64,000 nucleotides of DNA, taken from a virus. The notes below the pieces were generated by a model. The model did not search any database and was not told where the DNA came from. It saw only the letters and a program-made list of their open reading frames with translations. Position 1 is the first letter of the stretch; each line of letters begins with the position of its first letter. The stretch spans positions 1 through 64,000 of the IMG/VR virus record IMGVR_UViG_3300036719_006047; one strand, given 5' to 3'. The translations under genes were made by a program, and so were the position numbers. Below, one piece after another: positions 3,653 to 55,683 of this stretch.

Positions 3653-6205
3653 TTAGCTCCATTTCAGTATGCGAATTCGCGTGATGTAGTTTGATACGGT
3701 GCCCGAGCACCGCAAGAGAAAAAACCCCTTGAGGGCATTTCCGTAAGCCTGGGCAGTTGTCGCAGTTTCAGCGGCAATACCCAGGTAAGTGTAGCCAGAC
3801 AAGTCCGGGTAACCGTCCGGCATGATAGTTGTGCCTAAGTCCGTTTTTGCGAAGATCAACCTACCCGCGATAATCACGACCGAAGTTACCATTTCGGTGA
3901 AGGCCCCAACCCCCGATAGTGTCTCAATCGTGGTGGTCGATCTTTGCGTGATAATGTTATAGCCTCCGCTGAATTGGTATATCTTGCGAACGCTCACGGG
4001 ATCGGTAAAAACATCCCCCACACTAATTCCCCAGCTTACATAGTTATTGCTACCGGAGAGCACAATAGACTGAGCCTGGAACTGGACCACCACACTACCG
4101 AGCTGCATGGCGGCGTTATTCAACCCTGCGGGCGTAGCTAAATCAAGCGATACGTTGAGCGGGTTGATTCCTGATGTCCCACCGACGAAAAGGCCGGATG
4201 CGTCAATTGAAGTTGTGCCGTTTGTGCTTCCTGAGCGGGTGGCCGTGAGCGTAGACCACGGAACTCCGCCGATCGTGACGGGCTGGCTGCCAGAAAAGAA
4301 GCTGGCGACTGGATCTAACGCAGTCATGTCTTGGTCGAGGATTGAGGTCCAGGAACCAGAGATCGCCGAAGTGAGAACCCCTATTTGAGCGATTGAAGTG
4401 ACGGTCTGTCCGACCAGTCCGAGGTCAGTAGCGGTAAGTGTAAGTTTTACCGCGCTACCGTCATTGAGACCGCTTACCGTGTAAGGGCCAAGGCCTGACC
4501 CCGAGAAAGAAGCACCAACGCCAAGCGTTTGCTCTAATCCGACAGAATAAGAGTAAGAACCTGTACCGCCCGTCGGCGCGTTGAACGTCACATTAACAGA
4601 AGTGCTGCCCGCGACGAGAATTTGCGCTGCGGGGTCAGAGCCTGCAACAAGCGGTGTAAAGGTGGCAGCCTGTAGGACTGCGATCGTAGTCGTGTTGAAA
4701 ACTTGTTGGTTCGTTACTGTGTCAGTCGAAGTAAGCGTCACTTTGGCAACGTCGCCGTCATTGAGGCCCGTCACTTGGTAAGGCCCTAACCCAGTGCCGC
4801 TCAAAGAAGCGCCTGTTCCGATCAATTGCGAAAGAGCGACAGCGTAGCTGTAGCTTCCGCTACCTCCTGTCGGCGCATTAAACGTAAATGAGCTGCTTGT
4901 CGTAGAACCGATGGGCAAAGCCTCGTTTCCGACGTCTGCCCCAGCCACCAAAGGTGCTTTTTCAACGATGGTGTAGGTTCTGGAAGTCACACTCTGCGCT
5001 ACAGGCCCCGCGTCTGTCGTCGTCAGCGTGAGAACCGCAATGTCTTCGTCTTCGAGGTTCGTGATGCTGTAGGGTCCTAAGCCGCTGCCACTAAAAGAAG
5101 CTCCCGTGCCTCGAACAAAGGACAGCACAGCGGCATAGCTGTAGCCTCCGCTGCCTCCTGTAGCCGCAGTAAAGTTGATACTCGTTCTGCTGGTCGTACC
5201 CGCAGCCAGTGTAACTGTGGGAGGCGCGGCTGCAGGATTGAGCACGTTGTAGCTGTCGACTACCGCGGTCGTCGTGAAGTTCTGTACCTCCTGGGCAATG
5301 CCCCCAGCATCAGTTGAAGTCAAAACAATAGTAGCTATGCGTCCGTCATCGAGCCCGCTAAGGGAATAAGGACCAAGACCCGATCCCGATAAAGTCGATC
5401 CGCTGCCGACATCTTCTACCAGGCTTGCGCTGTACGTGAAACTTCCGCTGCCCCCCGACGGCGCGGTGAACGTGAAAGGCCCTGAACTCGTAGACCCGAT
5501 GGGGAGCGACGAGTTTGACGGGTTTGCAGCAACTACGACAGCCGACGTAAGTTGAATAACGGAGACAACGAAGCTCGACGTGACGCTTTGCGCTACAGGC
5601 CCTGTGTCTGTTGTGGTCAACACCACTTCTACGACATCGCTAAACTCGAGATTGTTTACCGTGTAGGGCCCAAGCCCGCTGCCCGACAAGGTCGCACCAC
5701 TTCCGACGACCTGCACCAAGCTCGCGGAATAGCTGTAGGCGCCACTTCCGCCAGTCGCAGCCGTAAAGCTCGCAGGAGCGCTGCTTGTTGCTGTTGCGGC
5801 AAGGTTTTGATCTGCGGGCGCGGCAGCCGCAACAAGAGGGTTGTAGGTTCCTTGCACGCTGATGACGCAGTATTCGTACACAATCTGCGTCGTAGAGCCC
5901 GTGTCAGTGATCTCAAGCGTGATCTCTACGACATCACCGGGCTGCAAAGATGATACTGTGTACGGCCCAAGCCCGCTGCCTGATAAAGTCGCGCCGCTGC
6001 CGACCACGTGAGAGAGGCTTGCGCTGTAGCTGTAGCCACCACTCCCGCCGCTCGGGGCGTTGAATGTGACTGTCGTGCTTGTGGCTGACCGGGGTAGCGT
6101 TTGATCTGCCGGATTTGCCCCAGGCGCAAGAGGAGTGTACAGCGAGCTCGTGCTCGCCACAAAGGAGATATTGGTCTTGCCCAGGATAGAGATGCTCAAA
6201 ACCAC
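3653..6205 (-). CDS. Ig-like repeat virion/fibre protein A
   Basis: An 850-aa protein built of six tandem modules of about 95 residues. Each contains TF(N/T)APSGGSG.YSYSASL, then SG(A/S)TLSGSGLGPYTVS and a LTxTDTG strand, a pattern typical of PKD/Ig-like beta-sandwich repeats. The last ~200 residues (from about 655, SWTSILDQDMTALDP) form a different globular domain with a G-rich beta pattern, likely a receptor- or surface-binding tip. It is paralogous throughout to the next gene, with which it overlaps by 10 nt. There is no signal peptide. The likely role is a tail fibre, head decoration or other exposed virion protein, inferred from architecture and proximity to lysis genes. Confidence 0.75.
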   Translation of the reverse strand: MVLSISILGKTNISFVASTSSLYTPLAPGANPADQTLPRSATSTTVTFNAPSGGSGGYSYSASLSHVVGSGATLSGSGLGPYTVSSLQPGDVVEITLEITDTGSTTQIVYEYCVISVQGTYNPLVAAAAPADQNLAATATSSAPASFTAATGGSGAYSYSASLVQVVGSGATLSGSGLGPYTVNNLEFSDVVEVVLTTTDTGPVAQSVTSSFVVSVIQLTSAVVVAANPSNSSLPIGSTSSGPFTFTAPSGGSGSFTYSASLVEDVGSGSTLSGSGLGPYSLSGLDDGRIATIVLTSTDAGGIAQEVQNFTTTAVVDSYNVLNPAAAPPTVTLAAGTTSRTSINFTAATGGSGGYSYAAVLSFVRGTGASFSGSGLGPYSITNLEDEDIAVLTLTTTDAGPVAQSVTSRTYTIVEKAPLVAGADVGNEALPIGSTTSSSFTFNAPTGGSGSYSYAVALSQLIGTGASLSGTGLGPYQVTGLNDGDVAKVTLTSTDTVTNQQVFNTTTIAVLQAATFTPLVAGSDPAAQILVAGSTSVNVTFNAPTGGTGSYSYSVGLEQTLGVGASFSGSGLGPYTVSGLNDGSAVKLTLTATDLGLVGQTVTSIAQIGVLTSAISGSWTSILDQDMTALDPVASFFSGSQPVTIGGVPWSTLTATRSGSTNGTTSIDASGLFVGGTSGINPLNVSLDLATPAGLNNAAMQLGSVVVQFQAQSIVLSGSNNYVSWGISVGDVFTDPVSVRKIYQFSGGYNIITQRSTTTIETLSGVGAFTEMVTSVVIIAGRLIFAKTDLGTTIMPDGYPDLSGYTYLGIAAETATTAQAYGNALKGFFLLRCSGTVSNYITRIRILKWS

Positions 6206-8760
6206 CTCAGCAAACGCACTCGAGTAATGGTGGTTGTGTTTGTAGCGGCATTACCAACCACCGCAGCGTAGCCGTTGATCGCTGTCGTAAAGTACTGCGC
6301 AGTCGAGGTTGTCTGTGCCGCTGTTCCTGTATAGTTGTAGCCGCTCGAATTTGTAGGGTTCGAGGGCAGTATTACCGTATCGAGTTCAGGCTTGATGAAG
6401 CAGAGCCGTCCGCCGTACAGCAAGATCGAGACGACGCTCGATACGGGTCCGCTTCCCGAAGAGCTGAGCAATTGAGTGCTTACGCCAGCTCTCCAGGTGC
6501 GTAAGTTGTAGTTAGGGCTAACGAACTGAACGTAGGCTGCGTTGCTGGTCACGTCCGTGATTGAGTTCACGCCGTTGATGCCCCACATGCAGTAGTTGCT
6601 GGCCCCTGAAACAGTGACAGGGTCGTTGATCAACTGCAACAGCCAAGGACCTTTCTGAAAATCTGCTTGCGCAAGACCCACAAAGAACGGAGCCAAGTTG
6701 ATCGATGCGATGATCGCTCCAGAACCCGTAGACGCAGAGACTGTCAATCCTCCTGCTCCTGCCGTAACAGTCCCGTTTGTCACGCCTGCGCGAACAACCT
6801 GCACAGTTGCCCACGTGACGCCGCTGAACTGAAGGTTTTGCGTTCCGCTCGACCACGGTCCTCCTGCATCAAGGCCGATCAAGGACTGGTCTACTATTGT
6901 TTGCCATTGAGCGGCTGACGTAGGTTCTGCGACAGCGACTTGAGAATACGCTTTTACGACTTGACCTACAGGGCCTGTGTCTGTCGCCGCCAGCTCTACG
7001 GTAGCGATGTCGGAATCGCCTAAACCGCTGACTGTGTAAGGCCCAAGCCCGCTGCCCGACAAGGAAGGAGTACCAGAAGCAGTCAGCAAGGAGCCGACAT
7101 AGCTGTAGGCTCCGCTACCGCCCGTCGGGGCCGTAAATGTGATAGCAGAGCTCGAAGTACTGCCCGAGGGAAGTCCTTCGTTGGCTGGGTTTGCGCCTGG
7201 AACGAGCGCCACGTAGGTCGGCTGAAAACCAACCGTCACGACAACGGTTGTGGTCACAGCTTGCGCTATACCTGCAGCATCTGTAGACGTCAAAATAACG
7301 TTGACGACGTCATCGTCAGCAAGGTTCGACACCGTGTAAGGGCCAAGACCGCTGCCTGATAAAGTAGCGCCCGAGCCGCTTACTTGAACAAGTGTCGCGC
7401 TGTAGTTGAAGCTACCGCTTCCTCCAGAAGCTGCGTTAAAAGTTATTGTGTTGCTCGTGGTCGTCCCGTAGGCAAGGTCTTGGTTTGCGGGAGCGGCGCC
7501 TGGAGTGACAAGCACTTCTCCGACACTGACATACATCACACGAGTAACTTGCTGCCCGATAGTGTCTTGCGTGACGCAAAAAACCGCAACCACATCACCA
7601 TTTTCAAGGTTCTGGACCTGCAAGTTCGATCTGCCGGTCCCTGCCAGAGTGGCTCCGCTACCCACGAGCTGCTGAATGCTTGGTGTGTAGACCAGAGTAC
7701 TTCTACCTCCCGAAGACGTCGTAAACGTGATCAAGTTCGATACTGTGGCACCTGCCGCTAGGGTCTGAGAAGCGGGCGTCGTGCCAGGGCTCAAAGGCGT
7801 GTAGGGCAGCGGGTAGTTGATGATCACCCAGTTGCGGACAACTTGTCCGATTCCAGCAGTATCGGTAATCGTGAGAACGAGACGCGAAACGTCTCCTGCT
7901 GCGATTGACCCGACTGCGTAAGGACCAAGACCCGAGCCAGAAACAGTTTGACTGCTGCCTCCTGTGATCATTGTAGGTGTAGCGATGCTGTAGCTGTAGG
8001 TTCCGCTACCGCCGCTGGGCACATTGAACGTGATACCGCTTACGCTGGTCCCCGAAGCTGTGACAGTGCTCGGGTTAGCGCCAGGAACAAGACGAGGGAC
8101 AGCTCCGTCAACAGAAACAAGAAAGTTGTTGACCACTGTCTGAGTAACAACGCCAGAATCAGTGCTGGTCAAAGAGACTTCGACGACATCTCCCGCACCC
8201 AGGTTGTTTACTGTGTACGGCCCAAGCCCGCTGCCCGACAAGGTCGCGCCGCTGCCCACAGCTTGAATCAGCGTCGCAGAGTAGGTGTAACTGCCGCTGC
8301 CTCCTGTGGGCGCCGTAAATGTTTCGGGCGCTGAAGACGTGCTGCCTGCAGGCAGTGTTTGATCCGCAGGGTTCGCAGAAGCAACCAGCGGGCTGTAGAC
8401 GAAGTCGACTGTGATCACGCACTGAGAAGTGACAGTCTGCGCAACAGGTCCCGTGTCGGTCACAGTCAAAATGACCTGAAGTTCGTCTCCGTCTTCGAGG
8501 CTCGAGACTGTGTAGGGGCCGAGCCCACTTCCCGACAAGGAAGCGCCGGTTCCTCGAATCTGATCGAGAGTGGCACTGTAGCCATAGCCGCCACTCCCGC
8601 CGCTGGGTGCGTTGAACGTAACTGTCGTGCTCGTCGTGCCCGTCGCCAAGTTCTGATTGGCTGGATCTGCGCCGGGAACAAGGGGCGTGTACGGCGTAAC
8701 CGGCCCGCCTCCCGAGGACGCGAACGAAAACCCAGTCGAATCCGGTATCTGCTGCGACAT
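6196..8760 (-). CDS. Ig-like repeat virion/fibre protein B (paralogue of A)
   Basis: An 854-aa protein with the same plan as its downstream neighbour: a short N-terminal head (~30 residues), six Ig-like modules bearing GGSG.YSYSATL and GSGATLSGSGLGPYTV signatures, and a C-terminal ~220-residue domain beginning AQWQTIVDQSLIGLDAGG. The fourth module (SSGGRSTLVYTPSI, near 360-375) has lost the glycine-rich signature, so modules have diverged. Both tips share W-x-x-(I/L)-(L/V)-D-Q and a TNGT motif but differ elsewhere, as expected if they bind different ligands. The intergene spacing (2 nt upstream) suggests one transcription unit with the small gene at 8762. Confidence 0.75.
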   Translation of the reverse strand: MSQQIPDSTGFSFASSGGGPVTPYTPLVPGADPANQNLATGTTSTTVTFNAPSGGSGGYGYSATLDQIRGTGASLSGSGLGPYTVSSLEDGDELQVILTVTDTGPVAQTVTSQCVITVDFVYSPLVASANPADQTLPAGSTSSAPETFTAPTGGSGSYTYSATLIQAVGSGATLSGSGLGPYTVNNLGAGDVVEVSLTSTDSGVVTQTVVNNFLVSVDGAVPRLVPGANPSTVTASGTSVSGITFNVPSGGSGTYSYSIATPTMITGGSSQTVSGSGLGPYAVGSIAAGDVSRLVLTITDTAGIGQVVRNWVIINYPLPYTPLSPGTTPASQTLAAGATVSNLITFTTSSGGRSTLVYTPSIQQLVGSGATLAGTGRSNLQVQNLENGDVVAVFCVTQDTIGQQVTRVMYVSVGEVLVTPGAAPANQDLAYGTTTSNTITFNAASGGSGSFNYSATLVQVSGSGATLSGSGLGPYTVSNLADDDVVNVILTSTDAAGIAQAVTTTVVVTVGFQPTYVALVPGANPANEGLPSGSTSSSAITFTAPTGGSGAYSYVGSLLTASGTPSLSGSGLGPYTVSGLGDSDIATVELAATDTGPVGQVVKAYSQVAVAEPTSAAQWQTIVDQSLIGLDAGGPWSSGTQNLQFSGVTWATVQVVRAGVTNGTVTAGAGGLTVSASTGSGAIIASINLAPFFVGLAQADFQKGPWLLQLINDPVTVSGASNYCMWGINGVNSITDVTSNAAYVQFVSPNYNLRTWRAGVSTQLLSSSGSGPVSSVVSILLYGGRLCFIKPELDTVILPSNPTNSSGYNYTGTAAQTTSTAQYFTTAINGYAAVVGNAATNTTTITRVRLLRWF

Positions 8761-11463: not shown

Positions 11464-11779
11464 GGATTTCCGCCGCTGCTCTGACCTTGTCCCACAGAAC
11501 GCGAGACACGTCTTGGAACATGATGTCGCTGCGGCCGTAACCATCCCTCTGCCAGTTGTCAAAGGCCATTACTGCCGTAACGAGCTCTTTGAACTTCTGT
11601 GCATTCTCGATGTCTGCATTGAGCTTGCTCTTTGCTGCGAAAACTGCTTTGGCCTTATCGACCTTCCGTTGAGCGGAAGAAAGCAAGGAATCGATATTCG
11701 AGAGGTCTTCCTCTGCTCCAGCCAGAGCGTCGGAAAGCTTGTTGACGGCACCCACCATGCTGATGTCGCTGTGTCTCAT
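11414..11779 (-). CDS. Hypothetical coiled-coil protein (121 aa)
   Basis: An unrecognised, mainly helical protein. Residues 8-60 (NKLSDALAGAEEDLSNIDSL and onwards) have the heptad look of a coiled coil. It starts at 11779, overlapping the polymerase stop by 4 nt in an ATGA-like arrangement, which implies translational coupling. It lies between DNA polymerase and the Rad50-like gene, so a replication or recombination accessory role is plausible but not shown. Confidence 0.55.
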   Translation of the reverse strand: MRHSDISMVGAVNKLSDALAGAEEDLSNIDSLLSSAQRKVDKAKAVFAAKSKLNADIENAQKFKELVTAVMAFDNWQRDGYGRSDIMFQDVSRVLWDKVRAAAEIHDEPQDKVPCLFSESK

Positions 11780-14700
11780 ACTTTATCCCACGACTTGCCG
11801 ATGTCGGCGCTTGCGGTGAACTCCACCCCGGGAAGGGAGTCGTGCACCTGGTTCATGCACTCTTCGAGGAGGCGGGCAACACGCTCGCCTTCCCCTTCAG
11901 GGCATTCGATCACGATGGCGTCGTGGCACTGGTTGATGATGCCTGTGCCCGGACCCCACTTGTGGAGAGGAACCTGCTCGTAAAGCTTGACCATCGCCAA
12001 ATTCATAATTGCGGCTGCACTGCTGTTTTTGGAGATAAATCCCTCAGCTACGTAGCAATGCTCTTCGTCGTCTACGCACAGCGTAAATACTTCTGAACGA
12101 ACGCAAAGAGACGATACCGAACTAACATGTGCGTGATCGTAAATGTCATTTACCTCCATCTTAGCACAAGAGTACGCTGTGATTGATTTATCGTTGTCAC
12201 TATTCCTCAGTCTCGATTTCATTGTTCTTTGTGAAGCGGACTTAGCACTCAGCTTTTCTACGACACGCCGCACTTCGAACGAAGGCAGGGTTTCGTTAGA
12301 TCTGTACTTGCACTCCCGACCCCACCCCAAAGAAGAGAAAACTTGAGATCCAGAAAGCATTAGACGCCACGAAACTGTTTCAGATTCCTTGTTGGTGCGG
12401 TAAGGTCCCGCCAACTTTTGCGCGTCAATCCCCACTGTTCGGCACAATACAGCTATTTCTCTCAGTAGATCTGGGTTAAACATGTTTAGGACTACGGCAC
12501 CGTCAGGCAGTTGATAACCATCTCCATCAAGAACACCGAGCAAAAACTTTTTTCTGTTAGCAAGAGAAGAGCGCCAAATGATTTCAGGTATCCTTTTGTC
12601 CCGGGCTTTCAGGCCGGGGTTTAGCCCGAACAACGAACAAAAAACATCGCAGTCCCTTCCTGCTAATACGACCCAATGACCAGCTTCTTCCCGCACTGTG
12701 GGAGACAAACCCACGCCAGACATCAAGCGTTCGACATTTTCCTTAGCTTCAATACCGCTGCGCTCTGTGCGCCCTGTACTTGATGTCTTCCCTACTACAA
12801 TGCTGAAGGCAACTCCTTCGTTTTTTCCTTTGTCCTTCCGAGACAAGCAGCCGTCGGATGTGTACAACCCGAGGAGAAAAGCGACATCGTCTCCTATATC
12901 TTTTCCGAAGTTGAGATCAGTTGCGAGGGTCATGGCAACTCTGTTGTTCTCGATAAGAGAATCGGCTTCTCTCCATTCGTACTCTGAGCGACCGACGACG
13001 CGAAATTTATGAGTAGCGTCGCACAGAAGTGATGCTGCGTGGTTGGTGTTCACTCTCAGCAGGGGAACAGTGCCTTTTCGAATGCAAGTCGCCGTTGCCC
13101 ATTTCTTACCCGTCCAAGCGTCGAAACGAAGGCCTTCGAGCTCACGAATAGGTATGTATCCGTTTTTTGTGATGACGCGAACATTACCGGGAACACACTG
13201 GATAGGAAAGTTCACGATTTCGTTAGCCTTCTCGCCGTCTAAGAAGTCCCGTCTGCGGCCAGTTACGGGCTCTCGGAGGTATCCTTTTTTGCGGTAAGTT
13301 TCGATCTCTGCCTGCCATCCCGTCTTGAACTGAGGTGCACCGCGAAGCCAGTTTTCCTGCATCACGCGAACCTTCTGCAACGGAAGCTTCGCGTAAGGCA
13401 AGTCGGTTGTGCCGTCGTTGAGCGGCTCTTTCGTGACAGGGTCAGAGGCAGGCACTTCGGTTTTGCGGATGAGTTTGTGCGTCGTCTCCGCAGAGCCCAT
13501 GTACTGCGAGCAGTACTGAACGCCCTTGGAGAGATCGCGAAACGTTTTCGCTTCGCCCTTCCCGATGAACTTGCCCTTCTCGTCGTAGGCTTTGCCGACA
13601 AGCATGCCATTCCCGGCGTAGCAAGAAGGATCGACACCAGCCGCCCGGCAGAAGTCGTTACCGAAAACTGCGTAAGCCGTCATGCCGTGAGGATCCTTGC
13701 CTTCTCGGAAGGCGCGCAAGTATAGCTCGACGCCCCAGCGGGCTGCAGCCACCCGGAGCTCAAGCTGGTCCATGTCAGCGCCGACCAGGACATTGCCCGG
13801 TTGAGCCACGATCATGGAGCGCATGGCTTTTGGGAAGTTCTGACTCTGTCTCGTTACGGTTACCTTTCCTTTTCGACGAACAACAATGGCATCACTCGGA
13901 ACTGTGACGCAGTAGACCATTCCGTCATAATCAACTTCCTTGCATGACCAGTCCTCTGTGATTCGAATGTCTTCTTCCGGGTGAATGAAGCGCAAAGGAA
14001 AGCTTTTTTTATTGCGGTTTACGAGACGGTGCAGCTGGTGTATTTCACTTGCCGTGAGGGTCAGGACTTCGTTGTGCAGTAAAGGAAAGTCCGCACCAGA
14101 AAATCGGAAAGGAATACGATGATTTGGCGTCATCAGTAGATCCACTTTCTCATCTTCGATGTAGATCATGTACCCCGTGTGGCGTCCGCAGTGGTATGCA
14201 GTAGGAAGTGAAAAGTCTATTTTTCCGTCTTCGTGCCACTGAGCGACCTTGAGTTTGCCTTGATGCGATTCAAGGAGAACGTCAAAACGCACCCAACCGA
14301 TTTCTGTCAGAATTTCAGTCTCGGCGTCAAAGCAGTTAATCGGCTTTGAGCTTGACAGACGGCCAGTAGCCGCAATGTGCGCCGAGTAGCCGGGGTACAT
14401 TCTTCCCGTCGCAGGGTTGACGATACCTCTCTTTTCCTCGCCGTACTGCTTTCGCGTTTCCTTGTCGACCCAGTCTTCGTCTTCATCCCAGCCGAGGTCT
14501 GCACCCATGTTGCTGGGCCTAAGCTTGACCACATAGGTGCCAAGAACTTTTTGGCACTTCCTGTACCTTCGGATGAGCTTGATGACAGCTCTGTGGTCCT
14601 CCTCGATCTGACCGTCCGTGAGAAGCCCGCGGAGGATATAGTCTCCGGTAGAAAGGTCGCCAGATTCGGTGTATCTGTCCTCCTCGTCAATGAACTCAGT

Positions 14701-16581
14701 CGACAACTTCCATCGGTCGAACAGCAGATCTCTCAAGTGGTTCACAGAAGCCGGATTGAAGAGCTTCAGCCCAGTCGTGTCCCGAATTTGGTGAAGAAGG
14801 TTGTGCCTCAAGGTCAGAAGCTCAACTTCTTTTTTGTGCCGTATCGCCTGGTCGACGAACATTCCTGTGGTGTGCATGACCATACAGATCTCTTGAATCT
14901 GCATGTCCAGTTTGTACACCTCAAGCTGGTCCCGTGCATCAAGCGCATCGAGGAGAGGAGGTAAAACTCTCGCAGTTACCGCGACATCGCGTGCTGCGTA
15001 TTCGTGTAGCTGATGGTCATTCTCGCCGCCGTGCGCGATTTTGTTACCTTCGCGGTCCGAATTGCCCGAAACAACGACTTTCCCGTTGCGCCGAACAACT
15101 ACAAAGCCAGAAGGCACCGTGACACAGTAAACGCGCCCATCGAAATCTACTTCATTTCTTTCGAGATGCCCTACGCGGACAATTTTGAGCGTAATTCCAT
15201 CTTTATTTTCTGTGCCCGTTACCCATTCTGCGCCATCAGGAACTTCTGCTGGGCTTGCCACCAGCCATTTCGACTTGTCGTCGATGCGATACAACATTTT
15301 GTGGTTCGGTGTAACAAGTAAGTCGACAGCTTGACTCTTGAACGATCGCATTTCCCCCTTGTACGGCTGATTGACGTAAGCCGAAGGGGCGACAAAAGAA
15401 ATAACACCGTCATCCCATTGAGCTACCAGGTCTGATTCCTCCAGATCAGGGAATCGAACAAAGCCTCTGTCTGTCAAGATTTCAGTCTCGCCGTCATAGC
15501 ATTTCCAGGCAGGTGCATCTGTATAAAGACTGGCGACGTAGGCGAGGCTGTGCGGCATCTCAGGATCCACGTTCCTGTGGATCATGATGGTGTCGATGTT
15601 CGGCTTGACATCAAAGCCCAGCCGCCTGCGGATGACTGTTCGGTCGTAAGAACCTGAGTTGTGGCCGATCTTGTGGATGTTCTCGTTCTCGAAGAAGTAG
15701 CGAAGCTCTCGCAGCATCGCGGAAGCTTCTTCTTCGTTGTAGAAGTCGATAAACAGTCCTGGGATTTCTTTGGGCTGCTTGTTCGAGCGCAGCCCGATCA
15801 CCATCACCTTTGTTTCGTTGCCGATGGCGATACAGCGGATGTTTGCGTCGAGCGGCTCAATACCGTCAGTCTCGATGTCGTAGGTCCACAGATTGTCTGT
15901 GTCGATGAACTGGCGAAACTCGGCAGCGGAAGGGTGATAAACGATATCGGGCTCCACCCAGCCAGACAAACCGTTGAATGCCCTCATCGCCTTGCTGATG
16001 TCCGACCGAAACACATGAGCCCATCGCTGCTGCTTCTGCACCAGACCAGGGGAAACGGTCGGAAGCACTCGCCGCGGAAGCGTACGAATGGTGCTCTCGA
16101 GTTCTACGAGCGCTCCCCGAACAGCAAGAATGCTCTGGGATGAGCCTGTTACAGCCTGCATGGCTGTTTTCCCGAGCGGGATGAGATCTCGAATGTGGGC
16201 AATCTCAGCGTTCAAGCGAGGCGAACAACACTCTTGCGGCGTCTTCATCACTTGGCCGCTCAGCTTCGCTTGCTTGGACAGCCCTCGCGTCATCTGGGCG
16301 AGATCGTTGTCCGGCGGCCGGCACAGGATCGTGTAAGTGAGGTGGAACTTGCCTCTGTGGTGCCCTGAAGCCCTGACGGCGCGGTCCAGTTCGGTGCCGT
16401 TCGGCCCAACGAAAGGACGCCCGTGCTTCTCTTCAGGCTCGCCAGGGGCTTCGCCAATCAGAGCAACACGGGCGTTTGCGTGACTTTCAGGAGGGACGAC
16501 AGTCTGACCGTTGAGGGGGCACTCATCACAGAGGGCGCCACAAGCACGCGGGTTGTAGCTTGTGCGCTTCTCTATGGTCAT
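11776..16581 (-). CDS. Family A DNA polymerase with N-terminal UDG-like domain and three inteins
   Basis: The 1601-aa precursor should splice to about 900 aa. Residues 1-200 form a family-4 uracil-DNA-glycosylase-like domain, with GEAPGEPEE..GRPFVGPNG at 43-62 and candidate Fe-S cysteines C18, C21, C87 and C117/118. The 3'-5' exonuclease follows: Exo I YDIETDG at 234-240, Exo II GHNSGSYD near 306-313, Exo III Y528/D532. The polymerase has motif A LVGADMDQLELR near 932-943, O-helix R1015-xxx-K1019-xxx-Y1023 (a T7-like tyrosine), and motif C QCHDAIVIE at 1551-1559. Inteins occupy 361-507, 750-912 and 1129-1519, each inside or beside conserved blocks. A UDG-like N-terminus on PolA is known from SPO1-type phages. 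All catalytic residues are present, so it should be the replicative polymerase. Confidence 0.95.
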   Translation of the reverse strand: MTIEKRTSYNPRACGALCDECPLNGQTVVPPESHANARVALIGEAPGEPEEKHGRPFVGPNGTELDRAVRASGHHRGKFHLTYTILCRPPDNDLAQMTRGLSKQAKLSGQVMKTPQECCSPRLNAEIAHIRDLIPLGKTAMQAVTGSSQSILAVRGALVELESTIRTLPRRVLPTVSPGLVQKQQRWAHVFRSDISKAMRAFNGLSGWVEPDIVYHPSAAEFRQFIDTDNLWTYDIETDGIEPLDANIRCIAIGNETKVMVIGLRSNKQPKEIPGLFIDFYNEEEASAMLRELRYFFENENIHKIGHNSGSYDRTVIRRRLGFDVKPNIDTIMIHRNVDPEMPHSLAYVASLYTDAPAWKCYDGETEILTDRGFVRFPDLEESDLVAQWDDGVISFVAPSAYVNQPYKGEMRSFKSQAVDLLVTPNHKMLYRIDDKSKWLVASPAEVPDGAEWVTGTENKDGITLKIVRVGHLERNEVDFDGRVYCVTVPSGFVVVRRNGKVVVSGNSDREGNKIAHGGENDHQLHEYAARDVAVTARVLPPLLDALDARDQLEVYKLDMQIQEICMVMHTTGMFVDQAIRHKKEVELLTLRHNLLHQIRDTTGLKLFNPASVNHLRDLLFDRWKLSTEFIDEEDRYTESGDLSTGDYILRGLLTDGQIEEDHRAVIKLIRRYRKCQKVLGTYVVKLRPSNMGADLGWDEDEDWVDKETRKQYGEEKRGIVNPATGRMYPGYSAHIAATGRLSSSKPINCFDAETEILTEIGWVRFDVLLESHQGKLKVAQWHEDGKIDFSLPTAYHCGRHTGYMIYIEDEKVDLLMTPNHRIPFRFSGADFPLLHNEVLTLTASEIHQLHRLVNRNKKSFPLRFIHPEEDIRITEDWSCKEVDYDGMVYCVTVPSDAIVVRRKGKVTVTRQSQNFPKAMRSMIVAQPGNVLVGADMDQLELRVAAARWGVELYLRAFREGKDPHGMTAYAVFGNDFCRAAGVDPSCYAGNGMLVGKAYDEKGKFIGKGEAKTFRDLSKGVQYCSQYMGSAETTHKLIRKTEVPASDPVTKEPLNDGTTDLPYAKLPLQKVRVMQENWLRGAPQFKTGWQAEIETYRKKGYLREPVTGRRRDFLDGEKANEIVNFPIQCVPGNVRVITKNGYIPIRELEGLRFDAWTGKKWATATCIRKGTVPLLRVNTNHAASLLCDATHKFRVVGRSEYEWREADSLIENNRVAMTLATDLNFGKDIGDDVAFLLGLYTSDGCLSRKDKGKNEGVAFSIVVGKTSSTGRTERSGIEAKENVERLMSGVGLSPTVREEAGHWVVLAGRDCDVFCSLFGLNPGLKARDKRIPEIIWRSSLANRKKFLLGVLDGDGYQLPDGAVVLNMFNPDLLREIAVLCRTVGIDAQKLAGPYRTNKESETVSWRLMLSGSQVFSSLGWGRECKYRSNETLPSFEVRRVVEKLSAKSASQRTMKSRLRNSDNDKSITAYSCAKMEVNDIYDHAHVSSVSSLCVRSEVFTLCVDDEEHCYVAEGFISKNSSAAAIMNLAMVKLYEQVPLHKWGPGTGIINQCHDAIVIECPEGEGERVARLLEECMNQVHDSLPGVEFTASADIGKSWDKV
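12025..13197 (-). other. Intein 3 of DNA polymerase (with LAGLIDADG endonuclease)
   Basis: Precursor residues 1129-1519 (391 aa). It begins with Cys (CVPGNVRVITKNG, block A), has a block B-like LLCDATHKFRVV near 1185-1196, and ends EGFISKN followed by Ser+1. Two LAGLIDADG-type helices, FLLGLYTSDG at 1235-1244 and FLLGVLDGDG at 1346-1355, mark a homing endonuclease. The insertion lies between NFPIQ and SSAAAIMN, the helix C-terminal to the fingers that is normally NFPIQGTAAD in PolA. Being full-length, it may still be mobile. The penultimate residue is Lys rather than the usual His. Confidence 0.9.
13846..14334 (-). other. Intein 2 of DNA polymerase (mini-intein)
   Basis: Precursor residues 750-912 (163 aa), starting CFDAETEILTEIGW (block A) with block B VDLLMTPNHRIPFR near 813-826 and block F EVDYDGMVYCVTVP near 882-895. 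It ends VTVTRQ, followed by Ser+1. The terminal residue is Gln instead of Asn, a known but less common variant. There is no endonuclease domain. It interrupts GRLSSSKPIN/SQNFPK, the block just before motif A (PolA SSSDPNLQNIP). Confidence 0.9.
15061..15501 (-). other. Intein 1 of DNA polymerase (mini-intein)
   Basis: Precursor residues 361-507 (147 aa), starting CYDGETEILTDRGF with block B VDLLVTPNHKMLYR near 419-432 and block F EVDFDGRVYCVTVP near 477-490. It ends VVVSGN, followed by Ser+1. Gly occupies the usual penultimate His position. It sits inside the 3'-5' exonuclease, between Exo II and Exo III (APAWK/SDREGNK). Its C-terminal half is strikingly similar to intein 2, so the two are paralogues. 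Confidence 0.9.
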
Positions 16582-16584
16582 GCT

Positions 16585-16917
16585 CTACTCCTTTGATTCA
16601 GTCACTTCGTCGTCTTGTTCTGCAGGAAGAGTAGCGACATAAGCAGTCTTAATCAGCGCAATCAAAGCTTCTGGCGAAATCGCAATGGCGGGAACGTTCG
16701 AGTAGAGAGGCAGAATACCGTTATTGGCCTGCTCGATAAGATCCTCCGCCCACTGCTTCATGCCTCGCACTGTCTCTGCATTGAGGACAGGGAAATCCCC
16801 AAAAGTGTGCTTCTTGAAGGGGTTAACAGTGTTGATCGGCTTTCCGTCTGGTCCAAGCAGCATGTTCGCTCCACGAGAAAATGCCGGTCTCTCCCGGCTG
16901 TCACGCCTGTTTGTCAT
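16585..16917 (-). CDS. Hypothetical protein upstream of DNA polymerase (110 aa)
   Basis: The open frame runs to 17148, but the N-terminal extension is a low-complexity shadow of the neighbouring gene, so the ATG at 16917 (MTNRRDSRERP) is used. The mature part reads ANMLLGPDGKPINTVNPFKKHTFGDF, then a helical region (ETVRGMKQWAEDLIEQANNG) and a hydrophobic helix (ISPEALIALIKTAYVATL), ending in an acidic tail. The family is unknown. It lies 3 nt before the polymerase start and 31 nt after the ssDNA-binding-like gene; a replisome accessory role is inferred from position only. Confidence 0.6.
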   Translation of the reverse strand: MTNRRDSRERPAFSRGANMLLGPDGKPINTVNPFKKHTFGDFPVLNAETVRGMKQWAEDLIEQANNGILPLYSNVPAIAISPEALIALIKTAYVATLPAEQDDEVTESKE

Positions 16918-16948
16918 TGCGACCCGACGGCGTTCTCGGTGGGGGCGC

Positions 16949-17557
16949 TCAGTTCGGAGCAGCGCCGAGCTTCGACAGGATGCTGCTGCGGGTAGCGGTA
17001 CCGGCAACGGCAGCCGGAGTGCTGGCCGGGGTGATCGCCGGAGCGGCGGCCTCAGCGCGGCCTGCAGCAGGAGCAGCAGGGGCGTGGCTCTCGCCAGGGA
17101 CGAAGTTCTCGGAGCGCTCCTTCCAGATGGCGGGCGGCAGGAAGTCAACGCGGTCGTAGCTACCCTCGCCGGGCGACGGCACGTAGTAGATGAACGCGTT
17201 GCGGTTCACGATGGCGTTGGAGCTGAGCTGCAGCTCGCCGTTGTCGAGCACGTTGGGGGCGTGACCGACACTCTCGAGCAGACCACGCCACAGGTTGCGG
17301 GCGTAGTCCTTCGCCTCACCGTTGGGCAGGTTGATGCCAGTGGTGCGGACAGCGCCCTTGCTCTGGCCATCGAGCACCTTGACCTTGATGACGACACGGC
17401 CGGGCTTCTCGGGCTTAACGTAGGCATCGGTGACGGTCACCTTGTAGTAGCCCTCTTCCATCGCAAGGACGGAGTTGGCAGCAGCGACACCGCTGAGGTT
17501 GACCTGGAAGGACCAGCTGCGATCACCATCGTTCTGGGTAGCGATATCGGTCGACAT
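16949..17557 (-). CDS. Probable single-stranded DNA-binding protein (DUF669-like)
   Basis: A 202-aa protein with a beta-rich N-terminal ~135 residues (EGYYKVTVTDAYVKPEKPGRVVIKVKV... near 36-64) and a conserved phage-like NAFIYYVPSP.......DFLPPAIW near 122-144. A flexible Ala/Pro-rich tail from about 155 ends at SKLGAAPN. OB-like core plus flexible tail is the layout of phage SSB and DUF669 proteins, and it is directly downstream of a Sak4-like ATPase, the usual pairing. This tail is not strongly acidic, unlike E. coli SSB. Local GC is higher than that of its neighbours. ATG at 17557, 17 nt after the upstream stop. Confidence 0.6.
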   Translation of the reverse strand: MSTDIATQNDGDRSWSFQVNLSGVAAANSVLAMEEGYYKVTVTDAYVKPEKPGRVVIKVKVLDGQSKGAVRTTGINLPNGEAKDYARNLWRGLLESVGHAPNVLDNGELQLSSNAIVNRNAFIYYVPSPGEGSYDRVDFLPPAIWKERSENFVPGESHAPAAPAAGRAEAAAPAITPASTPAAVAGTATRSSILSKLGAAPN

Positions 17558-17574
17558 GTTACTCTCCTGGTGGG

Positions 17575-18468
17575 TTAGAGGACGTTTTCTGCGGTCTGGA
17601 AGAACTTCAGTCTGCGCTTAGTCAAAGCTTTTCTGATAATGGAACGGTCCAAGGCATCACGCAAAATCCAAATGGCTTCCTCTTCTGGCATACTCTCCGA
17701 GAGGAGCATCGAATAGGTATCATTGGCGAAGTTTTCGAGGTCTGCTCCCTCCAAAGTGATGAGCTTATCGCTGAACACCTGCACAATCTCTTCGTTCTTT
17801 TCCATATCGGGCAGCCGAGGAATGTGCAAGCCCGCCGCCCGAAGAATCTCTGCCAGGTTCATCGGAGCCGGGTCAGACTTCTGGGCAATGTTGAATCGAT
17901 CCTTCATGGTGAAGGAAGGATCCCCGCTGCACCGGTACACGCCGTGCCAAGGCTGACGCTTGGGCTCGTAGCCTGCGCGAAGGACGATGTCACACATGGC
18001 CGGCACCTGCTCCGGAAGCTTGCCGGGAAGCATGGGGCCGCCCTTGATCTTGGCTCCGTTCGGATTGACCTTCGGGGGCTGCTCCCAGCAGCTCATCACC
18101 ACATCGATGCCGGCGTAGCGGGCCTCGTTGCGGAAGTGAAGCACCTGATCACGGATCGCACCCCAAAGGGCAAAGCCAGTTTTCTTCTTCTCTAGAGCAG
18201 AAATAGTCTGCTCAGCAATAAAGCTGAAGTCGTCAAAGACGATAGCCGAATAGCTTTTCTTTGCTTGACCGAGCAGCTTTGTAGCCTCTTCGATCGTCGT
18301 GGCCTCAGCAACAGCGGGCTGATAACCACAAGTCGTCTTGATCGAGGTCAAAGCGCCCGGAGCAGCAATGAAGAGAGCTCTCGGGAAAGAGTAGCCAGTA
18401 TCAACTGTTTTTCCAATCCCCGAAGGGCCGTAAACACACGCAACAACACCTTCTCTGTCGTTTGCCAT
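17575..18468 (-). CDS. Sak4/RecA-like recombination ATPase (AAA_24)
   Basis: A 297-aa P-loop ATPase with Walker A GPSGIGKT at 14-21, the Sak4-like region FPRALFIAAPGALTSIK at 28-44, Walker B SAIVFDDFSF at 74-83, and a polar motif VVMSCWEQPPKVN near 123-135 followed by GGPMLPGKLPEQVP. Sak4 proteins are minimal RecA-core ATPases that stimulate SSAP- or SSB-dependent annealing in phage recombination. Companion genes fit: an SSB-like gene follows at 17 nt, and a RecB/Cas4-like nuclease lies upstream. A good sigma70-type promoter immediately precedes it. Confidence 0.8.
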   Translation of the reverse strand: MANDREGVVACVYGPSGIGKTVDTGYSFPRALFIAAPGALTSIKTTCGYQPAVAEATTIEEATKLLGQAKKSYSAIVFDDFSFIAEQTISALEKKKTGFALWGAIRDQVLHFRNEARYAGIDVVMSCWEQPPKVNPNGAKIKGGPMLPGKLPEQVPAMCDIVLRAGYEPKRQPWHGVYRCSGDPSFTMKDRFNIAQKSDPAPMNLAEILRAAGLHIPRLPDMEKNEEIVQVFSDKLITLEGADLENFANDTYSMLLSESMPEEEAIWILRDALDRSIIRKALTKRRLKFFQTAENVL

Positions 18469-18485
18469 TCTTGCCCCGCTCCAGA

Positions 18486-18514
18486 ATCCTAATCTCGGCC
18501 CTGCCCAGTGTCAA
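18486..18514 (-). promoter_or_regulatory. Sigma70-like promoter for the Sak4-SSB-polymerase run
   Basis: On the minus strand TTGACA (18514-18509), a 17-nt spacer and TAGGAT (18491-18486) give a perfect -35 and a 4/6 -10. A second TTGACA lies 7 nt upstream (18521-18516), partly duplicating the element. The transcript would start about 10 nt before the GGAG of the 18468 gene. Confidence 0.5.
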
Positions 18515-18517
18515 CTG

Positions 18518-18706
18518 TCAATTTGGGAGGGACTTCAGCCACCGGCTTGCTGCTTCTGCGATGGTCAAGTAGTTCATCACCTGAGGCTCGACTTTCAGCC
18601 GAGTGGCGACAACCGCGACTTGCTCTTCTTGGTTCTGGATGACTGCGAGAAGCAAGACGCGCAAGCTGCGATCGTCCATCTTCTGCAGTGCTTCGATCGC
18701 ATGCAT
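18518..18706 (-). CDS. Hypothetical small protein (62 aa)
   Basis: The frame is open from 18754, but ATG at 18706 is preceded by AGAGAGGTAGGTTTG, a strong Shine-Dalgarno, so that start is preferred. The protein is helical: MHAIEALQKMDDRSLRVLLLAVIQNQEEQ, then TRLKVEPQVMNYLTIAEAASRWLKSLPN. It may be a small DNA-binding or adaptor protein. It is located between the nuclease and Sak4 genes. Not recognised. Confidence 0.5.
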   Translation of the reverse strand: MHAIEALQKMDDRSLRVLLLAVIQNQEEQVAVVATRLKVEPQVMNYLTIAEAASRWLKSLPN

Positions 18707-18735
18707 CAAACCTACCTCTCTTTGGCCCTTGGCTG

Positions 18736-20064
18736 TTAGTCTTTCCACGTCCACTTGGGGTCACCCTTGCTGGTGTGACCCCAACGACAACGATCCAGGA
18801 ACTCGCAGGCCCCGTAGCGGTGGAAGCACGTAAGCTCGTTCATCGCTTTGGGCCACAAGTGAATCGGTCTGCTGCTCTCCTGCATGCGAATGATCGATTC
18901 CTCGATGTCTTCGACAGTCTGCTCGAATTGAGCCTCGAAGTGAGGCGCGGAAGGCAGGCTGATTCGCTCGAACTTGGGCGTCTTGCTGACTTCAATCAAG
19001 TTGAGCTTCAGGCCGACAGTCTCGGGGTGATGCTGTCGGGCCAAGTATTGGTAGCCAATCAACTGACCTGAAGCAGAATAGTACTGCTTGTGCGAAGGAG
19101 TGAGCCGGCTTGTCGTGTTGTGGGTCACGATGCCGTTTCCAGTAACGAAGGTGTGGAACTTAGGCACCTCGATGTCGTAGCACCACACAGCCGGCATCGT
19201 CAGATTGCCCGTTACTCTTACCCACTCCAACACCTTCGGCAGCTCTCCGTTCGCAGGAAGTCCTCGAGCAACAAGCTCATCCGTCTGGATGAAACAAGCC
19301 TTCTTCCAGCCCGACTTCGTCAAGATGGGATGGTTGTAGCCGTACTCTTCGCTGCTTCCGTCAATGAAATACAGTCGGTTGACGTTCATCATCCCCGCTC
19401 TCTCAGGGGCACGAGCCTCCGACCACGAAAATGACTTTTTGTCCTCGTCGTAAGCGAGACAAGTCCAAGGTCTTTTTGCTTCAAAGAGCGCGCCTACGGT
19501 CATGACGCCCCTTGGCGTCAAAACCCGCGTCGAAGCGGGCAGGCACTTGTGGTCTGCGGCCCACAGGCGGCCTCCCGCGTCATGCCACAACAAGTCAATC
19601 CGTCCCGTGAAAAGATACTTTCCTCGGATCGTGTGCTCGTAGAGCTTCTCGACACCGAAAATTTTGAGGTTCTTCTCGTCGAGAGGATAGTGATCGCAGT
19701 AGGCTTCGAACACCTCAAGAACAAGAGGAACGAACTCTTCGCCTCCGATCACTTTGGCGATGAAGGGAACTGCCTCTTTCGGATGCTCGTAAAGTTCAGG
19801 ATCTCTGCCGTTTTGCTCTTCCATCATTCGAGCGTAGTGCTGAGCCAGTGCCAAGTGCATCAGGCTGCCCTTCGCCAAGGCAGGACTGCCTGGCCCCTCT
19901 TTCTCCTTCACGCCATCTTCTGTGCCTGTTCCGTACGACCAGGCATATTTCTGCAAGCACTCAGCCCCCTGCTGGAGACGGTGCCACCCTCGAGACGAAG
20001 AACCCGTAAAGATGATAAGAGGCTCAGGTTTATGCACTTTGACTCCCAGGCAGTCATTTGGCAA
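18736..20064 (-). CDS. PD-(D/E)XK nuclease (Cas4/RecB-like) interrupted by an intein
   Basis: A 442-aa precursor that would splice to about 299 aa. The nuclease motifs are ALAKGSLMHLALA near 62-74 (motif I His70), FTGRIDLLW at 152-160 (Asp157) and AADHK at 169-173 (Asp171-x-Lys173). Motif GQLIGYQYLA, including the QxxxY pattern, follows the intein. A CxxxxxC cluster near the C-terminus (CEFLDRCRW) plus earlier cysteines could form the Fe-S site typical of Cas4/AddB-like enzymes. The fold predicts 5'-3' or ssDNA exonuclease activity in recombination, consistent with adjacent Sak4, SSB and UvrD genes. The 143-aa intein begins immediately after the catalytic Lys, so splicing must precede activity. 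Confidence 0.85.
   Translation of the reverse strand: MPNDCLGVKVHKPEPLIIFTGSSSRGWHRLQQGAECLQKYAWSYGTGTEDGVKEKEGPGSPALAKGSLMHLALAQHYARMMEEQNGRDPELYEHPKEAVPFIAKVIGGEEFVPLVLEVFEAYCDHYPLDEKNLKIFGVEKLYEHTIRGKYLFTGRIDLLWHDAGGRLWAADHKCLPASTRVLTPRGVMTVGALFEAKRPWTCLAYDEDKKSFSWSEARAPERAGMMNVNRLYFIDGSSEEYGYNHPILTKSGWKKACFIQTDELVARGLPANGELPKVLEWVRVTGNLTMPAVWCYDIEVPKFHTFVTGNGIVTHNTTSRLTPSHKQYYSASGQLIGYQYLARQHHPETVGLKLNLIEVSKTPKFERISLPSAPHFEAQFEQTVEDIEESIIRMQESSRPIHLWPKAMNELTCFHRYGACEFLDRCRWGHTSKGDPKWTWKD
19117..19545 (-). other. Mini-intein in the Cas4/RecB-like nuclease
   Basis: Precursor residues 174-316. It starts CLPASTRVLTPRG (block A), contains GYNHPILTKSGW (block B-like) near 242-253, and block F VWCYDIEVPKFHTF near 293-306. 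It ends GIVTHN, followed by Thr+1, with a canonical His-Asn terminus. There is no endonuclease domain. It is unrelated in detail to the polymerase mini-inteins. Confidence 0.9.
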
Positions 20065-20091
20065 AGCCCCGTAAGCTGCCTGCCTGGGACG

Positions 20092-20454
20092 TCAAGCTTC
20101 CTTCTTCTCTTTCTTTTCCTTCCGCACTTGTTCGTACAGAATAACTGGCTCGCAGACTTTCAGGCGAACAAGTTCTCGTGCCAATTCAGTTGCTCCGGGG
20201 ACAGAAAGACCGAAGCTGATCCAAGTTCTTTTTGTTCCCGGGTGATCGTTGCAGACCTGGCATGCGCGCAAAGCCCCTTCTGGTACAACTTTCCCCTCGT
20301 GAACCAAAACAAGTGCTCGCTCTTCGCCCCGCCTCATCTGTACCACTGTCGGAGGCTTCGCTCCAAACGGCCCATCCACGATAAGCCTACTGTCTTCTGC
20401 GTAAGGAGTAGGCACGAGGTACAGCGAGCGAACAGTACGGTATTCCGTGCCCAC
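20092..20454 (-). CDS. Hypothetical protein between nuclease and helicase (120 aa)
   Basis: An unrecognised soluble protein. Residues 8-60 look beta-rich (VRSLYLVPTPY..SRLIVDGPFGAKPPTVVQMRRG). A single Cys pair CQVCNDH (65-71) could be half of a zinc site. The C-terminus is a Lys/Glu helix (VRKEKKEKKEA). Its start overlaps the UvrD stop by one base, so it is translationally coupled to the helicase. Function unknown. Confidence 0.55.
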   Translation of the reverse strand: MGTEYRTVRSLYLVPTPYAEDSRLIVDGPFGAKPPTVVQMRRGEERALVLVHEGKVVPEGALRACQVCNDHPGTKRTWISFGLSVPGATELARELVRLKVCEPVILYEQVRKEKKEKKEA

Positions 20455-22397
20455 TACGGTCTCCGAGATGCGATGCGGAACCCCGCGATGGTCGGCAGAG
20501 CTGGCTCGTTGTCTTCGGGCAGTTCAGGCAGAGCTTCAGGCTTGAACCACTCCCGCTTCAGAAGCCGCGTCATTCCCGCTCTGGCACCCTCGTTATTGGT
20601 GTTCGCGTAGAACAAATGAAGGTTCATCTTAGCCCGCGAAAGAGCTACATAAAGCAGCCTCTCCTCTTCGTGAATCTCGAGACCCACACTACGCTTGTGC
20701 GGGATGAGCCCATCGGTCACATCGACGTGAACCTCGTCCCATTCAAGACCCTTCGCTTTGTGGATCGTGCTGAGAAGGACGACACCTTCTGTGTTCGAGG
20801 ACACAGCGCGGTTGATAAACGCAGTGAAGTCCGCGTAGCTGTCGCACCTCTCCGCCGCGATCATGACTGCGGCGAGCACGCCAAGAGTGTCGGTCTCGTG
20901 GACCTCGCCTTCGTCCTCTGTGTTCTTCATCAGGAGCTGGAATACATGGCGCGCCTGATGCTTGTAGGCAAGGGCACAGCCTGCCTCCAAGAAGTAGCTC
21001 AACTCCATCAAGTTGTTTTCGGTACCCTTCTTGAGATTCCCGCTGCGCATCACTCGGCGAAGGGTGAGGTAGATCGGTTCTTTGACGTTGCGGGGCGTGT
21101 GCTTCAGCAACTGCGCGAACTGAGTGCTGACGAACCGCTTAGGCGTGTTGAGCACTTCGCTGAGTGCTTCGAGCGAGTTCTCGTTCATCGCTTTGAGGTA
21201 ATTCACCATCACCCGAGCTTCCCACGACTTGAACAGCGAGCTTTGCCCGGCCACCATGACCGGCACACCGATGCTCACGAAGGCGGCTTCGATCGTAGCG
21301 ATCTGGCCGTTGGTGCGGCACAGGACTACTCGAGACCGCTCGATTCCGTTCTCCTTGTCCGTCAGCACACTCTCTGCGATGCGCAGGCCCGCGTCAAAGG
21401 AACTGTCGTGGGCGCTGACCCGAACACCGCTAAAGCTGTCGGCGGGCTTGGTAGCCTGAACATGAGAGCCGATGTCCCACTTCTTCCCCGCAGAATAGGT
21501 GTTGCACAGCTCAACCACATCGGGGGTAGAACGATAGTTGAACCTCAGCTCTCTTGTCTGCGCCTGCAGCTCAATCTCTGCGTTCTGGAAGATGTGAGGG
21601 TAAGCTCCACGCCATTCGTGCACGCACTGGCGAAGATCACCGATCAACACGATTTTGCCTTGCCTTGCGGCCAAAAGCTTTGTGATGTCGGCCTGGATCT
21701 TGTTGTTGTCCTGCGCCTCGTCGACAATGACAACGCGGAAGTTTGACCCTCCTTCCTGCTCCAGCTTGGTGTGCCAAGCCAGCAAGACGTCATCGAACTC
21801 CCAAGCGCCGAGCTTCTGCTTCGCGCGCTCGACCATCGCCCAGGCAAGCTTGAACTGCGGGGCTTCTCTGACGTGTTTTGCTTCATGGACTCGAACACCT
21901 GCCGCGCGCTGCAGCCCGACGTGCTTCAAGTGAGCGTCGTGCTTGTCGGCGCACTTCAGCGATTCCTCTCCTGTGCCGGGCATGTTCCCGAAAACGACAG
22001 CGTTGCGCCACATCATGGAGGTCGAGGGGATGTTCTTCTCCCTTTGCCCAGGGCCCAGGTCCATGCACTTGTGCATGGGCCACGAAGAAGGGTTGTTGTA
22101 CCGCAGTTGATTGAGCCCGACGGCGTGGAAGGTGCCGACAGTGAGCTGTCGCGTGGCCGCTGCGCCGACAGCAACCTCGAGCCTCTGCTTGAGCTCGCCC
22201 GCCGCCTTGTTGGCGAAGGTGATGACGCAGATGTCTGAGGCCGCGATCTCATCGACAATCAACAGCTTCGCGATCAGTGCGACAACCGTTGTCGTTTTCC
22301 CGCTGCCCGCAGCGGCGACAACGCGCAGGTTAGAATCTACTGAAGGACTCCACCGAACAACGTTGACCTGATCTTCATCGAGCGCATCGAAATCCAT
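20454..22397 (-). CDS. UvrD/Rep-family superfamily 1 helicase
   Basis: A 647-aa 3'-5' DNA helicase. Motif I AAGSGKTTT at 29-37, motif Ia ITFANKAAGELK near 59-70, motif II VDEAQD at 225-230, motif III LIGDLRQCVHEWRGA, motif IV/V IHKAKGLEWDEVHV near 545-560 and motif VI LLYVALSRAKMNL are all intact. The length is close to family norm. The 2B region is shortened. It should unwind forks or repair intermediates and sits within the recombination block next to a RecB-like nuclease. The two could act together as an AddAB-like pair; that is inference. ATG at 22397 follows CAAGAGGGTAAG. Confidence 0.9.
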   Translation of the reverse strand: MDFDALDEDQVNVVRWSPSVDSNLRVVAAAGSGKTTTVVALIAKLLIVDEIAASDICVITFANKAAGELKQRLEVAVGAAATRQLTVGTFHAVGLNQLRYNNPSSWPMHKCMDLGPGQREKNIPSTSMMWRNAVVFGNMPGTGEESLKCADKHDAHLKHVGLQRAAGVRVHEAKHVREAPQFKLAWAMVERAKQKLGAWEFDDVLLAWHTKLEQEGGSNFRVVIVDEAQDNNKIQADITKLLAARQGKIVLIGDLRQCVHEWRGAYPHIFQNAEIELQAQTRELRFNYRSTPDVVELCNTYSAGKKWDIGSHVQATKPADSFSGVRVSAHDSSFDAGLRIAESVLTDKENGIERSRVVLCRTNGQIATIEAAFVSIGVPVMVAGQSSLFKSWEARVMVNYLKAMNENSLEALSEVLNTPKRFVSTQFAQLLKHTPRNVKEPIYLTLRRVMRSGNLKKGTENNLMELSYFLEAGCALAYKHQARHVFQLLMKNTEDEGEVHETDTLGVLAAVMIAAERCDSYADFTAFINRAVSSNTEGVVLLSTIHKAKGLEWDEVHVDVTDGLIPHKRSVGLEIHEEERLLYVALSRAKMNLHLFYANTNNEGARAGMTRLLKREWFKPEALPELPEDNEPALPTIAGFRIASRRP

Positions 22398-22422
22398 CTT
22401 ACCCTCTTGGTTTTGAGACAGG

Positions 22423-43432: not shown

Positions 43433-43444
43433 GGCCTGAATCAA

Positions 43445-46936: not shown

Positions 46937-46944
46937 GGGTCACC

Positions 46945-47664: not shown

Positions 47665-47672
47665 GGGTCACC

Positions 47673-48194: not shown

Positions 48195-48202
48195 GGGTCA
48201 CC

Positions 48203-48907: not shown

Positions 48908-48915
48908 GGGTCACC

Positions 48916-49599: not shown

Positions 49600-49607
49600 A
49601 GCCTACC

Positions 49608-50060: not shown

Positions 50061-50068
50061 GAATCAGC

Positions 50069-50980: not shown

Positions 50981-50983
50981 GAA

Positions 50984-53818: not shown

Positions 53819-53820
53819 GA

Positions 53821-54165: not shown

Positions 54166-54190
54166 GGTGCCTCCAGTTCTGCCCACTGAG

Positions 54191-55121: not shown

Positions 55122-55129
55122 GATTCACC

Positions 55130-55675: not shown

Positions 55676-55683
55676 GGTTCACC

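Follow-up and report, generated by a model that had tools for sequence, protein, structure and literature searches.

Three inteins at separate sites of a UDG-PolA gene in an uncultivated virus

The polA and nuclease genes and their inteins

The window analysed here is the first 64,000 nucleotides of a 136,910-bp IMG/VR virus contig (IMGVR_UViG_3300036719_006047). Its minus strand carries a replication module in which a polA gene and a PD-(D/E)XK nuclease gene are both interrupted by inteins, referred to as int1 to int3 (polA) and int4 (nuclease). The features are as follows, with slashes marking junctions.

11776..16581, minus strand: polA precursor ORF, 1601 aa; UDG family 4, DnaQ-like 3'-5' exonuclease, family A polymerase
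15502..16581, minus strand: first extein segment, 360 aa; holds the UDG domain plus the Exo I/II portion of the exonuclease; GC3 0.68
15061..15501, minus strand: int1, 147-aa mini-intein (APAWK/C...VSGN/SDREGNK); no endonuclease; GC3 0.48
14335..15060, minus strand: second extein segment, 242 aa; from the Exo III motif through TGRLSSSKPIN of the polymerase
13846..14334, minus strand: int2, 163-aa mini-intein (SSKPIN/C...VTRQ/SQNFPK); no endonuclease; GC3 0.49
13198..13845, minus strand: third extein segment, 216 aa, as far as NFPIQ; contains motif A (GADMDQLELR) and the motif B region (RDLSK) of the polymerase
12025..13197, minus strand: int3, 391-aa LAGLIDADG intein (NFPIQ/C...ISKN/SSAAAIM); GC3 0.48
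11779..12024, minus strand: last extein segment, 82 aa; motif C (CHD) of the polymerase and the C terminus of the protein
18736..20064, minus strand: PD-(D/E)XK nuclease ORF, in the same replication module as polA; intein-interrupted
19117..19545, minus strand: int4, 143-aa mini-intein (AADHK/C...VTHN/TTSRL); canonical HN/T end; GC3 0.68

The polA frame runs uninterrupted across 1601 codons. By Pfam and NCBIfam, the precursor begins with a family-4 UDG, which is followed by a 3'-5' exonuclease and then by a family A polymerase; PDB matches to Klenow/Taq and to the family-4-type UDG 1l9g also back these domains, in agreement with the UDG-PolA fusion proposed in the initial annotation. The three inteins (147, 163 and 391 aa) make up 701 of the 1601 residues (43.8%), leaving an extein of 900 aa; the earlier estimates of about 44% intein and a mature enzyme of about 900 aa are reproduced, and the proposed span of 12025-15501 coincides exactly with the outer borders of int3 and int1. 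The division into two mini-inteins and one LAGLIDADG intein likewise stands, int1 and int2 being endonuclease-free and int3 carrying both LAGLIDADG motifs. Alignment revealed that the extein retains the exonuclease acids D235, E237, D313 and D385 and the polymerase residues D626 (motif A), K709 and H852-D853. With the expected exonuclease and polymerase residues in place, the spliced enzyme should be active.

The GC3 of int1, int2 and int3 is 0.48-0.49 compared with 0.68 for the extein, every extein window of equal length being higher, and all 17 large ORFs checked have a GC3 of at least 0.548. The composition of these three inteins is foreign to the host gene. Window positions 13536-22581 recur almost unchanged in a contig assembled from a different metagenome (L001; 9046 bp compared, 4 mismatches), in which int1 and int2 are intact. 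L001 stops short of int3 and the full three-intein state therefore rests on one assembly. With the contiguous match to the intein-free orthologue L132 described below, a chance origin of the intein pattern is excluded.

The fourth intein, int4, was missed by the initial annotation. Its GC3 equals that of its host gene, which suggests that it has resided there for longer or came from a compositionally similar donor, and its site is empty in the nuclease orthologues of L132, L135 and L136. PD-(D/E)XK nucleases of two further loci (L098 and L100) contain a longer intein at another site (TWK/CSPSYC), showing that this nuclease is also repeatedly hit.

Empty sites and same-site alleles

Scans for close relatives in which a single query was used, either the complete precursor or the extein after splicing, found only L001, and an alignment of eight divergent PolAs offered no sufficiently conserved stretch; with the extein and Rctr197k as a paired query, the relatives scan succeeded. 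An intein-free orthologue (L132, IMG/VR 3300029258_001816), whose extein is 67% identical and which shares the gene neighbourhood, including the order nuclease, AAA ATPase, polA, runs without a gap through each of the three PolA sites, the alignment being interrupted at the intein borders and nowhere else. On the precursor it covers residues 2-361, 509-751, 914-1129 and 1520-1602 (stop-to-stop frame), four blocks that adjoin one another in L132, where the empty sites read PAWK/SDREGNK (int1), KPIN/AQNFPK (int2) and FPIQ/GSAAG (int3). Unlike the window, this relative has no intein at any of the PolA sites or at the nuclease site. The three inteins are also absent from L133 (43% identical), and the UDG-PolAs of Rctr197k and others align through the three intein junctions. 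Residue 1 is Cys in all four inteins, and the +1 residue is Ser at each of the three PolA sites and Thr in the nuclease. The corresponding PolA residues of L132 are Ser, Ala and Gly, whereas the window has Ser throughout; after the int2 and int3 sites, both L132 and L133 have Ala or Gly, which could not act as a +1 nucleophile. The +1 Ser at these two sites was either present beforehand or brought by the intein.

In a Klenow alignment, with numbering taken from the chain offset, int2 maps between N675 and L676 of E. coli Pol I (TGRLSSTDPN/LQN) and int3 maps directly after Q849, before G850 (NAPMQ/GTAAD), both within active-site blocks of the polymerase. The int1 site is in the exonuclease domain, downstream of Exo II and upstream of Exo III; the PAWK motif that it interrupts is conserved in this family but is not catalytic. 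The earlier claim that all three inteins sit at conserved active-site blocks is therefore borne out for int2 and int3, but applies only loosely to int1.

Inteins at the int2 site were found at further loci (L041, L082, L034, L021/L022, L030/L031/L033, L105, L108, L113 and L116). L041 (IMG/VR 3300023199_000051) resembles the window in being a UDG-PolA with a Gln-ending intein at the exact int2 site and a further intein in the gene. It differs in having two inteins and not three, in that its second intein is in the UDG domain, and in that its int2-site allele is 318 aa long with an endonuclease region. The UDG-domain intein of L041 immediately precedes the conserved Cys of CRPPDN. Used as the sole query, int3 returned no relative; a DNA pattern for the PIQ/C junction retrieved L101 (IMG/VR 3300033141_005271), a UDG-PolA with a 374-aa intein at the exact int3 site (PIQ/S). 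Unlike the window, L101 contains one intein only, which has 20% identity to int3 and a canonical HN end. Searching with a DNA pattern built on the int1 junction yielded no match in PolA, and hence no same-site allele of int1 is known.

Other PolA positions filled elsewhere are in the UDG domain (L041), the exonuclease domain (L083 and L140), motif B (L144), and at two points upstream of TGRLSS (L020 and, inferred from a truncated contig, L134). Across the loci examined, phage UDG-PolA and related PolA genes are thus a recurrent intein target, with nine insertion positions including the three that are filled together in the window. The highest number of inteins in one family A polymerase among these loci is three (the window), with two in L041, a count drawn from public sets whose search was not exhaustive and in which many loci are fragments. 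In L140 (2596-5658), the UDG-PolA contains a mini-intein of ~150 aa inside the Exo III motif (LHEY/CGRD).

The three-intein arrangement had been described as striking. It does hold the most inteins found, but the int2 and int3 sites are filled in other phage PolAs, L041 carries two, and multi-intein replication genes are known. The three-intein PolA is unusually burdened with a known kind of selfish element, and is not a new type of system. Haloarchaeal MCM inteins resemble it in that several sites of one replication gene are filled in combinations (PMC10643990), although the gene there is an archaeal helicase and the sites are different.

Intein families, predicted fold and the C-terminal end of int2

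The mini-inteins int1 and int2 are members of a large family of phage inteins that is marked by block F VYCVTVPSG...RRNG and usually ends in Gly-Asn; a viral scan for this family gave 346 matching stretches in many host genes. Members are found in the PolA of an E. coli phage, the NAMPT of a staphylococcal phage and the NrdB of a Tenacibaculum phage (NHEP1 PolA, Stab20 NAMPT and PTm1 NrdB). These share Cys1, the block-B His, the block-F Cys and, in most, the penultimate Gly with int1 and int2, but are 307-323 aa long with an endonuclease-like insert, whereas int1 and int2 are both of mini size, int2 moreover ending in Arg-Gln. In a 22-member alignment of the family, Cys1, the block-B His and the block-F Cys are invariant. 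Block B reads TPNH in both int1 and int2, and by eye only the His is kept in int3 (CDATHKF) and int4 (EYGYNHP). The C-terminal end of int1 is Gly-Asn, without a penultimate His.

AlphaFold (AF2) models of int1 (pLDDT 91.8) and int2 (pLDDT 87.5) have inteins and Hint/BIL/hedgehog domains as their best PDB matches, and both are predicted to adopt a Hint fold. The first match in each case, and the closest solved structure, is the AceL NrdHF class 3 split intein (6zgq, PMC7891396; TM 0.81 for int1), which like int1 has Met at B:12. It differs in being naturally split and classed without Cys1, whereas int1 and int2 are contiguous with Cys1, and on these grounds the latter would be class 1 by the usual rule. 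Class 3 membership of int1 and int2 was considered and rejected, as Cys1 is present and B:12 is Met or Ile and not Trp (no WCT triplet), although the block-F Cys is shared. With both Cys1 and the block-F Cys, the family might also, though improbably, stand mechanistically between class 1 and class 3.

In int3, both LAGLIDADG motifs are intact with their acidic residues (LLGLYTSDG and LLGVLDGDG), with Pfam matches to LAGLIDADG_3 (E 5e-6) and Hom_end (E 2e-4). Moreover, int3 matches PI-PkoII (E 2e-5) and also resembles phage NrdA inteins; it ends in Lys-Asn, without a penultimate His. Within the polA precursor, Pfam and NCBIfam detect an intein and a LAGLIDADG domain in int3 only, the match to the Pfam intein profile (E 2e-7) being below the gathering score. 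Standard intein models give weak scores for all four inteins. An intein N-terminus model run over the whole 137-kb record found exactly four sites, those of int1 to int4, all below the curated cut-off, and no fifth intein was found in that record. A genome-wide scan with the Pfam intein family recovered 0 of the 4, and an absent Pfam match was therefore not counted as evidence. Because automated intein models score int1 to int4 below their cut-offs, such genes are probably under-annotated.

In place of the Gly-Asn usual in its family, int2 ends in Arg-Gln, a feature that the initial annotation had missed. A terminal Gln is also found in the int2-site alleles of L041, L082, L105 and L116, all full-length (303-322 aa), and in 5 of 8 clade members at the PolA PN/SQN site. 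Since these loci have it in common, the terminal Gln of int2 is an inherited trait of the site lineage, and its recurrence at PN/SQN is possibly a lineage-specific active-site change. The penultimate Arg is found in int2 only, among 42 sequences. A sequencing error at the terminal Gln was rejected, as L001 has the identical sequence at this point and Gln is the last residue in same-site relatives too.

In a tree of the splicing blocks, int2 groups with the L041 intein (100% support) within a PolA-site intein clade (74%) that holds most of the other int2-site alleles. Neither L021 nor L030 falls in this part of the tree, and int1 and int2 do not form sister branches; the deeper nodes are weakly supported. 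At its two ends the L041 intein is colinear with int2, and it additionally contains the endonuclease region; int2 is best read as an allele of the L041 type that has become shorter. As int2 is allelic with full-length same-site inteins, it would have decayed in place and not been copied from int1. With an intein-free orthologue, full-length same-site alleles and a decayed mini-allele all represented, endonuclease loss at a fixed site becomes directly visible.

Invasion, splicing and alternative explanations

We consider it highly probable that three independent inteins invaded one viral UDG-exo-PolA gene and excise themselves in cis to yield a 900-aa polymerase. Under this model, three mobile inteins would have entered the gene of this uncultivated virus independently, at three sites. 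The gene would be translated as a single 1601-aa chain, from which each intein, folded as a Hint domain, would remove itself. Until then int2 and int3 would interrupt the polymerase active site, so that splicing would be needed for polymerase activity. With both endonuclease motifs kept, int3 may still home. In contrast, int1 and int2 appear to have lost their endonucleases and to persist as decayed alleles, probably because any inexact deletion would disrupt a conserved site. The gene could serve as a natural substrate for the study of multi-intein folding and splicing in one enzyme and of splicing from an Arg-Gln end.

Splicing of int2 is expected from its sequence, but is the weakest point of the whole inference. 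Were the Arg-Gln end to block splicing or to allow cleavage only, the polymerase would be split or dead, and the virus would use another polymerase or reassemble the fragments. The unique penultimate Arg and the terminal Gln speak for this outcome, and the Pab and Mma Pol II inteins that end in Gln splice slowly (PMC4031507). However, these inteins do splice, the CIV RNR intein splices better with a terminal Gln than with Asn (PMC4031507), and phage inteins often lack the penultimate His, frequently having Gly instead, a change that can even favour splicing (PMC5050341). The recurrence of Gln in four full-length alleles and the retained catalytic residues of the exteins also argue against a loss of splicing, as do the two SNPs of L001 within int2, both synonymous (n=2, weak evidence), and we regard such a loss as unlikely. 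It is distinctly improbable that int1 and int2 are one intein duplicated within the gene, which would leave only two outside invasions. The two are 40% identical (E 3e-30), but the tree places int2 with L041 and other PolA-site inteins and int1 outside, and both are part of a large family that hits many genes. A shared older origin of the two inside PolA is still allowed by the weakly supported backbone of the tree.

Alternatively, the inteins could owe their retention to a role as post-translational switches, making polymerase activation in the infected cell later or conditional. All four inteins found in the 137-kb record are in nearby replication genes, int1 and int2 persist despite their lost mobility, and examples of conditional splicing among replication inteins are known (PMC6195587). 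Against this, the relatives L132 and L133 do without inteins. Moreover, inteins cluster in replication genes as their usual target bias, and a switch function strikes us as very improbable. Quite unlikely, too, is a variant in which the Gln-ending PolA-site inteins form a distinct lineage whose altered end is slow or conditional, such that splicing, with three inteins in series, times polymerase activation. Lastly, the metagenomic origin and the coverage of int3 by a single assembly would suit an assembly chimera or artefact. The intact frame over 1601 codons, the exact intein borders, the independent contig with int1 and int2 and the homologous intein at the int3 site of L101 reduce that prospect to almost nil, and misassembly of the polA locus appears very unlikely. 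Independent invasion by three inteins that probably excise themselves is the reading that we retain.

The source virus is likely a phage. A scan of genome contigs found no relative, hence no host was assigned, and scans over part of the ORFs recognised neither a large terminase nor a capsid gene. The source record contains a free-standing ORF (L005:2357-3535) that matches an HNH endonuclease PHROG (E 1e-66). An AAA_5 ATPase and a DUF2201 (VWA/metallopeptidase-like) protein form two separate pairs in the record (window 41843-45076, plus strand, and L006:1480-3947, plus strand). Two adjacent paralogues of ~850 aa (window 3653-6205 and 6196-8760, minus strand) have Gly/Ser-rich N-termini and no PHROG match, and are perhaps fibre-like. 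At window ~46475-61137 (minus strand) there are more than 12 tandem paralogous pentapeptide-repeat proteins with few other genes interspersed, their starts being near MSDPRV..VLAHA.AC, an array that is very large for a virus.
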